Below, piece after piece: positions 23,603-25,061 of a stretch of 64,000 nt of DNA. Position numbers and translations under genes: made by a program. Source of the DNA: Lindgomyces ingoldianus. Lineage: Eukaryota > Ascomycota > Dothideomycetes > Pleosporales > Lindgomycetaceae. How positions within the stretch are numbered: position 1 is the first letter of the stretch; every line of letters starts with the position of its first letter. The notes under the pieces were generated by a model. The model searched no databases. It worked only from the letters and a program-made list of their open reading frames with translations, and was not told the DNA's origin. The stretch covers positions 791,311 to 855,310 of the forward strand of contig NW_022985165.1 in assembly GCF_010093535.1 (NCBI RefSeq). Reading direction: 5' to 3'.

Positions 23603-23726
23603 TTTTTTTTTTGCTCTCACCTGGAGGGCGAAAAAAAATGAGACACTAGTCCTAGCAACGCCTAGTAATCTTTGGGACTAGTGTCTCATTTTTTTCGCCC
23701 TCCAGGTGAGAGCAAAAAAAAAAAAA
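23603..23726. repeat. near-perfect inverted repeat (long hairpin)
   Basis: Left arm 23603-23652 (T10, GCTCTCACCTGGAGGGCG, A8, TGAGACACTAGTCC) is the reverse complement of 23675-23724 except for one base in the A/T run. The arms are about 50 bp with a 22-base loop. The outer right poly-A (13 A, 23714-23726) is, on the minus strand, the T13 terminator of the tRNA gene ending at 23731. It resembles a foldback or MITE-type element inserted beside a tRNA gene; target-site duplications are not evident. Confidence 0.85.
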
Positions 23727-23730
23727 TTGT

Positions 23731-23915
23731 TGATCGTGCCAGGGGTCGAACCTAGGGAGGAGTTAGGATGCGAATCGTCAATTGTTTCTAGTGAAACTCA
23801 CCTGGAATCTCTTGATTACTGTAGAATCGTAGTCTATGAGGAGCGATTAGAAATGTTACAGGAATAAAGTACACCTGTAGACTTACCAAGCGCCTTGCCA
23901 TTGGGCCACACGACC
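23731..23915 (-). tRNA. tRNA-Arg(ACG) interrupted by two GT-AG introns plus an anticodon-loop intron
   Basis: Read on the minus strand. Acceptor stem GGTCGTG pairs with CACGATC, discriminator A. D-arm is GCC/GGC with a GG-containing loop. Anticodon stem CTTGA/TCAAG, loop C-T-ACG-A-A, anticodon ACG (23830-23828). T-arm CCAGG/CCTGG with loop TTCGACC. This 72-nt tRNA appears only after removing three insertions. (1) 23886-23834, 53 nt: GTAAGT donor, CTAAT, ends ATAG; it lies inside the anticodon stem. (2) 23826-23817, 10 nt: the usual site after position 37. (3) 23801-23752, 50 nt: GTGAGT donor, CTAAC, ends CTAG; it lies inside the T-stem. Lengths add exactly (72+53+10+50=185). The A box (TGGCCCAATGG) and B box (GGTTCGACC) stay intact because the acceptor G restores the B box. 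A T13 terminator follows. Whether it makes mature tRNA is unknown. Confidence 0.85.
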
Positions 23916-25061
23916 GATTATTGATGGAAGAACTCCAACAATTATAATATATAACCTACCAAAAACTGCTTGATCGAGATTAGCGATCATGTGGGGTTAC
24001 TCTATAACACTTACGTGTTGCGCGTGTGTGGGAGCTGAGAATGGCCTTTGCCGCCGGCTCGCTTATTCAACCAATCAGGCGCAACTTCACGTGTATATCC
24101 ATTTTCCCGCTTTTCTGTGTGCGTAGGTTGGAGGATTTACCTATTTTTTTGTTGCTCTAGGTTGTAGAAGCGCTACTCTATTATGTGTTACTTATAAAAT
24201 CCAAAAAAATAATAATAATAACACCTACGTGCTGCAACTCCCGCAATATTGGTAGTTTACTGAGAAGAAGGGAGGGGGGTCCATTTCCGGCCCCTGAGCC
24301 TGAGCAGTCCCACCACAGGGATATGCGTCCACCAAATTTTGGAGGAAGGGGCCATACATGATCTGAAAAATAAGCTAAGCAGTAGAAGTTAAAGGTCACG
24401 TAAGCGGTTGAATAAAGTCGATGTTATCGCAAGTATAGATTGAGGTTGCATTAATAAGGCGAGCAGTTAAGAGCTTTCAGAAGTTATTAACTCTATGTTA
24501 CGCGTATCTGGCCGACGTTTCAAACAGCAATTCAGATGGAGATACCGAGTGCGCCTAAATATGGAAGCCAGCGTTCAAGAAAGGCGAATGGTTCACTTGT
24601 AGCTAGGCCCTATCGCTCCCGCATTAGTTAAGCTCTTCTCTAGAGAAGGAGTATACTTGGGAAATAAACAACTATTAGAGCAGACAGTTTATGATTTCAT
24701 AGGTATCCCTGTTAAAGCTCTAATAGGAGACCCTTGCCCTAGTTTAATATGGAGGAGCAATTCTCATAGGCAAAGGAGCGCATGAAAACACGTAAAGAAG
24801 ACGCAGCATACTGTCAGCTAGGTATTTTTTTAAAAAAAATTTAAATAGGTATTCTCTATGCTAAAGGAAAGAAAAAGGCGTTAAAGCAGCTTAAAAAATT
24901 AGAGAGTATTCTAACAATTACATTAGGTTGCTTAATAAAAAGCAGAAGTAGGAACTGCTAGACTTGCTAAGGTTTAACTAGATTAAATTACGCTAGATAA
25001 CTATTAAAACTGCCTATGATAGAACATGTCAATAGCTATTGCGTAAGCCTAAGTACCTTAA
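23916..25061. repeat. AT-rich repeat debris
   Basis: No gene. AT-rich with stops in every frame, consistent with RIP-degraded transposon sequence. No conserved transposase or polymerase motif could be read. Confidence 0.4.

Follow-up and report, generated by a model that had tools for sequence, protein, structure and literature searches.

Spliceosomal-type introns in a tRNA-Arg(ACG) gene and other tRNA genes of the ascomycete Lindgomyces ingoldianus

The minus strand of a 64,000-nucleotide stretch of the Lindgomyces ingoldianus genome (Pleosporales, Dothideomycetes; contig NW_022985165.1, positions 791,311 to 855,310; hereafter the window) carries a tRNA-Arg(ACG) gene at 23731..23915, which measures 185 nt with three introns and 72 nt without them. 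All its features named here lie on the minus strand, and the tRNA positions at which exons 1 and 2 end are numbered by hand. Exon 1 (23887..23915) provides the 5' strand of the acceptor stem, the D arm and the anticodon stem up to position 30. It is followed between positions 30 and 31 (30/31) by a spliceosomal-type intron of 53 nt (23834..23886) that starts with GTAAGT, has CTAAT 12 nt from its end and closes with TAG. Exon 2 (23802..23833) holds the remaining anticodon arm, the variable loop and the T stem up to position 52, and within it a canonical tRNA intron of 10 nt (23817..23826) is placed at 37/38. The second spliceosomal-type intron, 50 nt long (23752..23801) and situated at 52/53, begins with GTGAGT, has CTAAC 10 nt from its end and also closes with TAG. 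Exon 3 (23731..23751) supplies position 53, the T loop, the 3' strands of the T and acceptor stems and A73. A tRNA-Arg(ACG) gene with two mRNA-type inserts of these lengths and motifs was the core of the original prediction, and direct reading and a script confirm it.

The A box TGGCCCAATGGC (23897..23908) and the B box GGTTCGACCCC (23742..23752) were placed by script and, as had been proposed, both survive, the first G of the B box being the last base of intron 2. The role of the A box is the one usual in Pol III promoters. Upstream, at -38 to -27, lies a TATA-like stretch TATATATTATAA (23942..23953) of presumed function, and downstream a Pol III terminator-like run of 13 T (23714..23726) doubles as the outer end of a palindrome. 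This MITE-like palindrome of about 120 bases (23603-23726) adjoins the gene and provides its T run; its arms extend over about 50 bases by eye, the longest exact arm is 21 by script, and its 64-base core has no second copy in the sequence examined.

Removal of the two inserts leaves 82 nt in which the acceptor stem pairs at 7 of 7 positions and the T stem at 5 of 5, and removal of the 10-nt intron as well leaves the 72 nt foreseen, with the stems restored (script). The two junctions allow 2 and 5 equivalent placements, exactly one of each being GT-AG (script), so the stems by themselves do not fix the junction there. In the spliced sequence ARAGORN detects a tRNA, which it labels Thr(AGT) with the 10-nt intron at 33; the ACG reading depends on placing that intron at the usual 37/38, which also yields an anticodon stem of 5 bp. 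That the unspliced sequence might be the better tRNA, an objection raised beforehand, is not borne out: neither ARAGORN, with introns of up to 120 nt allowed, nor an Rfam search of the region recognises a tRNA in it. By a consensus rule the gene contains exactly two intron-like segments, and the cloverleaf returns once both are removed; of 5000 dinucleotide shuffles of its interior, 170 had any intron-like segment and none restored a cloverleaf, in keeping with the earlier judgement that coincidence is very unlikely. Group I and group II introns were rejected for the target, the Rfam result at 23700-23950 (E up to 10) consisting of a single chance miRNA family with an E of 9.9.

Inserts of this type recur in the genome, where 13 of the 47 tRNA genes read, about a quarter, carry 14 of them. 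The 47 comprise 34 genes found with Rfam, 12 found with patterns and the target. In the Rfam tRNA search 63 of 3779 candidates were scored and 34 matches exceeded the cut-off; all 34 were read by eye and with ARAGORN, and four have a long insert outside 37/38, in every case GT-AG (two His, Thr(TGT) and Ser(GCT)). Gapless D-arm pattern searches contributed the 12 further readable genes, eight of them with inserts (two Ile(AAT), Glu(TTC), Leu(TAG), Gly(GCC), Ile(TAT), Asp(GTC) and Phe(GAA)) and four with canonical introns only (three Pro and one Phe). Four such searches were read at 54 of 58, 14 of 43, 12 of 12 and 4 of 5 matches, and with 34 D-arm matches outside the inventory intact copies may be missed. 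The patterns require an intact D arm, so introns within it escape and the spectrum of insert positions is biased accordingly. One T-arm pattern gave 29 matches, among which only the known His gene was recognised as a tRNA, and 38 in its control; an anticodon-arm pattern gave 10 matches, each with one mismatch, versus 9 in the control. tRNA-Cys and tRNA-Tyr, among others, were not located by hand reading in this partial inventory.

Isotypes were assigned partly by hand. ARAGORN recognises a tRNA in all 13 insert-bearing genes once they are spliced and in 4 of 13 unspliced, and returns nothing for the other nine, a warning that genes of this kind can escape tRNA finders. For four of the 13 after splicing (Arg, Thr, one Ile and Phe) its label departs from the hand reading and is taken as wrong. 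A further locus, L024, is Glu(TTC) by ARAGORN and Arg(TCG) by hand, and being labelled two ways it leaves room for an intron-free Glu(TTC) gene. Four loci were left out of the 47. One is an Ile(AAT)-like gene (L129) without a spliceosomal insert and with its T loop shortened to 5 nt; another (L092) is Asn-like by hand reading and Ala by ARAGORN, and contains a long insert; a third (L142) is Ser-like and lacks the 3' half. The fourth (L144, G000:C6:146120-146322) has a tRNA-like acceptor and T arm over 155 nt with no anticodon arm resolved, and is called Leu by ARAGORN. The check for other Arg(ACG) copies that had been recommended turned up, at G000:C35:468814-468842(-), two overlapping pattern matches that read as the D arm and anticodon arm of another Arg(ACG)-like tRNA; there is no insert at 30/31 in them, and the target gene may on that account be dispensable.

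The 14 inserts share the signals of mRNA introns. Thirteen have GT-AG termini and one, in tRNA-Phe, has GC-AG; the donors are GTAAGT (6), GTGAGT (3), GTAGGT (2), GTAAGA (1), GTTAGT (1) and GCAAGT (1). Their lengths are 48-58 nt in 13 and 86 nt in one. All 14 have a YTRAY motif that ends 8-13 nt from the 3' end (CTRAY in 13); when the insert interiors were shuffled 1000 times, the motif stood at that distance in 0.9 of the 14 on average and in 5 at most. A chance origin of the intron-like inserts was rejected on these shuffles and on those of the target. The junction is unique and GT..AG in four inserts (Glu, Leu, Gly and Ile(TAT)) and slips over 2-5 placements in the other ten, each of which has one GT/GC..AG placement.

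A yardstick for these signals is the cytochrome P450 gene of the window, whose four introns (49, 49, 47 and 49 nt), when taken out, leave exactly the database Lindgomyces ingoldianus protein (532/532). Their donors are GTCAGT, GTTTGC, GCAAGT and GTATAT; all end in AG, and the single GC-AG intron has the same donor, GCAAGT, as the tRNA-Phe insert. YTRAY ends 8-13 nt before the end in three of the four, the remaining one being without the motif at the usual distance. By donor, branch point and length, the last compared with mRNA through these four introns of one P450 gene, the tRNA inserts would class as major (U2-type) spliceosomal introns.

Numbered by hand, nine of the 14 inserts interrupt the T arm, two fall at 25/26, two at 30/31 and one in the variable arm; the sites seen are 25/26, 30/31, the variable arm, 52/53, 53/54, 55/56, 58/59 and 61/62. 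None is at 37/38, and by position they do not class as canonical endonuclease-type tRNA introns. After splicing, the acceptor stem pairs 7 of 7 in all 13 genes and the T stem 5 of 5 in 12, with 4 of 5 in Asp(b). A T run of at least 5 occurs within 40 bases downstream of 12 of the 13 genes; for the Phe gene only 9 downstream bases were examined. T runs of 4 or fewer are not expected to stop Pol III efficiently, and as no run within any of the 14 inserts is longer than 4, efficient termination inside them is not expected.

The inserts at 53/54 (two His, Thr) put their acceptor AG in the place of the B-box GG, and in the Arg and Asp genes the final G of the insert completes the B box. In these genes the internal promoter is thus largely kept, a plausible reason for the hotspot. 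The B box is broken into by the introns of Leu(TAG), Glu(TTC) and Ile(TAT), and this weakens a Pol III account for those genes. In the Leu(TAG) gene (L140, G000:C12:736680-736880) the intron at 55/56 splits the box, and the spliced acceptor and T stems are intact.

Comparison between paralogs bears on function. Once its intron is removed in silico, the intron-bearing Gly(GCC) gene matches its intron-free paralog at 71 of 71 positions, and the flanks of the two show no similarity over about 480-500 bases per side. Two tRNA-His genes were found, both with an insert at 53/54, and the Rfam and pattern searches of this partial inventory yielded no intron-free one. The His pair differs by compensatory changes in the acceptor stem (4), T stem (2), anticodon stem (1) and D stem (1), and at 2 of the compared positions one or both genes have a non-standard pair. 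In the two Ile(AAT) genes, inserts of dissimilar sequence occupy the same position, and there are compensatory changes in the acceptor stem (3) and T stem (1). For tRNA-Phe, one gene has an insert and one does not, with compensatory changes in the acceptor stem (4) and T stem (2). Intron-free paralogs exist for the insert-bearing Gly, Phe, Ser and Asp genes. That no intact copy was found can be said with fair confidence for His and tentatively for the other isotypes. Acceptor-stem changes could come partly from pairing in the unspliced RNA, and the His and Ile(AAT) paralogs may already have been distinct when the introns arrived, so the changes in these pairs support function and do not prove it. 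Some gains seem to be old, judging by the insert position that the two His genes, and likewise the two Ile(AAT) genes, have in common. A set of decayed genes would not be expected to show such kept stems and signals.

We conclude that the two inserts in this Pol III gene for tRNA-Arg(ACG) are most probably (at about 0.85) genuine spliceosomal introns of the major (GT-AG) type, and that the gene is one of many such in the genome, which we take to be working genes. The observations behind this are sequence anatomy, restored structure, recurrence, the Gly paralog pair and the compensatory changes, and from them we infer transcription, spliceosomal splicing and the following order of steps. Pol III would transcribe the gene from the A and B boxes, the last G of the intron completing the B box, and transcription would end at the T run. 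The unspliced pre-tRNA would be unable to form its T and anticodon arms, leaving the ends immature and the RNA retained in the nucleus. Recognition of the short introns by U1 and branch-point factors would then follow the intron-definition mode of this fungus's mRNAs, and two lariat splicing events would give back the cloverleaf. RNase P, tRNase Z and, for the 10-nt intron, tRNA endonuclease and ligase would complete the tRNA-Arg last. We also think it rather likely, though with clearly less confidence, that the spliceosome is an obligatory tRNA-processing enzyme in Lindgomyces ingoldianus, where intact genes for indispensable tRNAs would exist only with spliceosomal introns. The tRNAs concerned would be His, Ile(AAT) and Ile(TAT), and perhaps Arg(ACG), Glu(TTC), Leu(TAG) and Thr(TGT).

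The original prediction had left two options, a transcript that reaches the spliceosome or recently inserted mobile introns in a tolerated or dead gene. The first appears the better one, given 13 genes with the same signals and intact stems, the exact Gly pair and the lack of an intron-free tRNA-His gene among those found. If the insert-bearing genes were instead tolerated or dead copies with accidental introns, left unmatured while intact copies elsewhere do the work, one could expect what is seen in part: the Gly, Ser, Asp and Phe genes have intron-free paralogs, the T stem of Asp(b) is imperfect (4 of 5), and there are the second Arg(ACG)-like locus and the 34 D-arm matches outside the inventory. 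A 2014 review, where it turns to ectopic inserts in eukaryotic tRNA genes, also places these mostly in pseudogenes (PMC4090602). We nevertheless regard dead copies as unlikely, because exons and splice signals are both kept, the Gly genes agree at 71 of 71 positions within unrelated flanks, compensatory changes are present in His and Ile and the T stem is perfect in 12 of 13 genes, while the genes read include no intron-free His gene and, for Ile(AAT), a single intron-free relative whose T loop is shortened.

A recent burst of mobile introns that seeded the tRNA genes would have a local parallel in the introner-like elements that PMC4457414, in its account of Dothideomycetes, describes for this class. 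It is very unlikely in our judgement. The genome search proposed earlier, made with the 201-base target region, returned a single match, the region itself, and so gives the notion of recent mobile introns in a dead gene no support; the search misses short matches and concerns the target insert pair only, and with the 72-nt spliced tRNA as query it gave zero candidates, its own locus included, and is therefore uninformative for short matches. The 14 inserts share at most an exact word of 10 bases or a 12-base stretch at 92%, and the common positions in His and Ile(AAT) suggest older gains, although old, diverged introners would be compatible with the data. Least probable of all, and hardly credible to us, is that the inserts are cut out by the tRNA endonuclease or along some other path that bypasses the spliceosome, an idea modelled on algal nucleomorph tRNA genes, which do have introns in D and T arms; the Guillardia theta introns given in that account measure 3-24 nt (PMC4090602), whereas those here have 48-86 nt with donor, branch and acceptor.

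The spliceosome, acting on mRNA, and the endonuclease and ligase, acting on tRNA, are held to be separate, and this genome suggests that the line has been crossed repeatedly, possibly for essential tRNAs and with target exons of 21-32 nt. If the spliceosome is obligatory for tRNA processing in this fungus, translation would depend on the splicing of Pol III transcripts. These genes make it possible to ask, in a natural setting, whether the spliceosome has access to Pol III transcripts and by what route non-coding genes acquire introns.

Introns of the mRNA type occur in U6 snRNA genes of fungi, and these, like the tRNA inserts here, are spliceosomal-type introns in a Pol III transcript. As U6 belongs to the spliceosome itself, its introns would seem to come from reverse splicing; a tRNA has no such link. 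No intron was seen in the U6-like copies of this genome (L043-L048, six read of 12 matches, the lower-scoring ones being diverged), and an intron-bearing U6 gene could escape the search. Ribosomal RNA genes are transcribed by Pol I. Spliceosomal introns in nuclear rRNA genes of ascomycetes, including 18S, are attributed to Cubero 2000 and Bhattacharya 2000 in the citations of PMC11889510, and an ascomycete 18S rRNA spliceosomal intron also appears in a 1993 title referenced by PMC11782384; here, too, spliceosomal introns interrupt a structured RNA of Ascomycota that is non-coding, but the hosts are rRNA and not tRNA genes. Canonical nuclear tRNA introns, one of which the Arg(ACG) gene has too, also interrupt tRNA genes but lie at 37/38 and are removed by endonuclease and ligase, not through GT-AG signals, according to the description in PMC13149111. 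Ectopic introns of cryptophyte and chlorarachniophyte nucleomorphs, as treated in PMC4090602, likewise interrupt eukaryotic tRNA genes in the D, T and anticodon arms but, in Guillardia theta, lack the length of the inserts described here, which bear spliceosomal signals. The introner-like elements treated in PMC4457414 are spliceosomal intron gains in the same fungal class, but multiply as families of similar introns, and no such family was seen among the 14 inserts in what is a limited test. In searches of the openly licensed PMC literature no account of such introns in tRNA genes came up among the papers listed, and the nearest precedents for the inserts of Lindgomyces ingoldianus are those in U6 and in the rRNA genes of ascomycetes.
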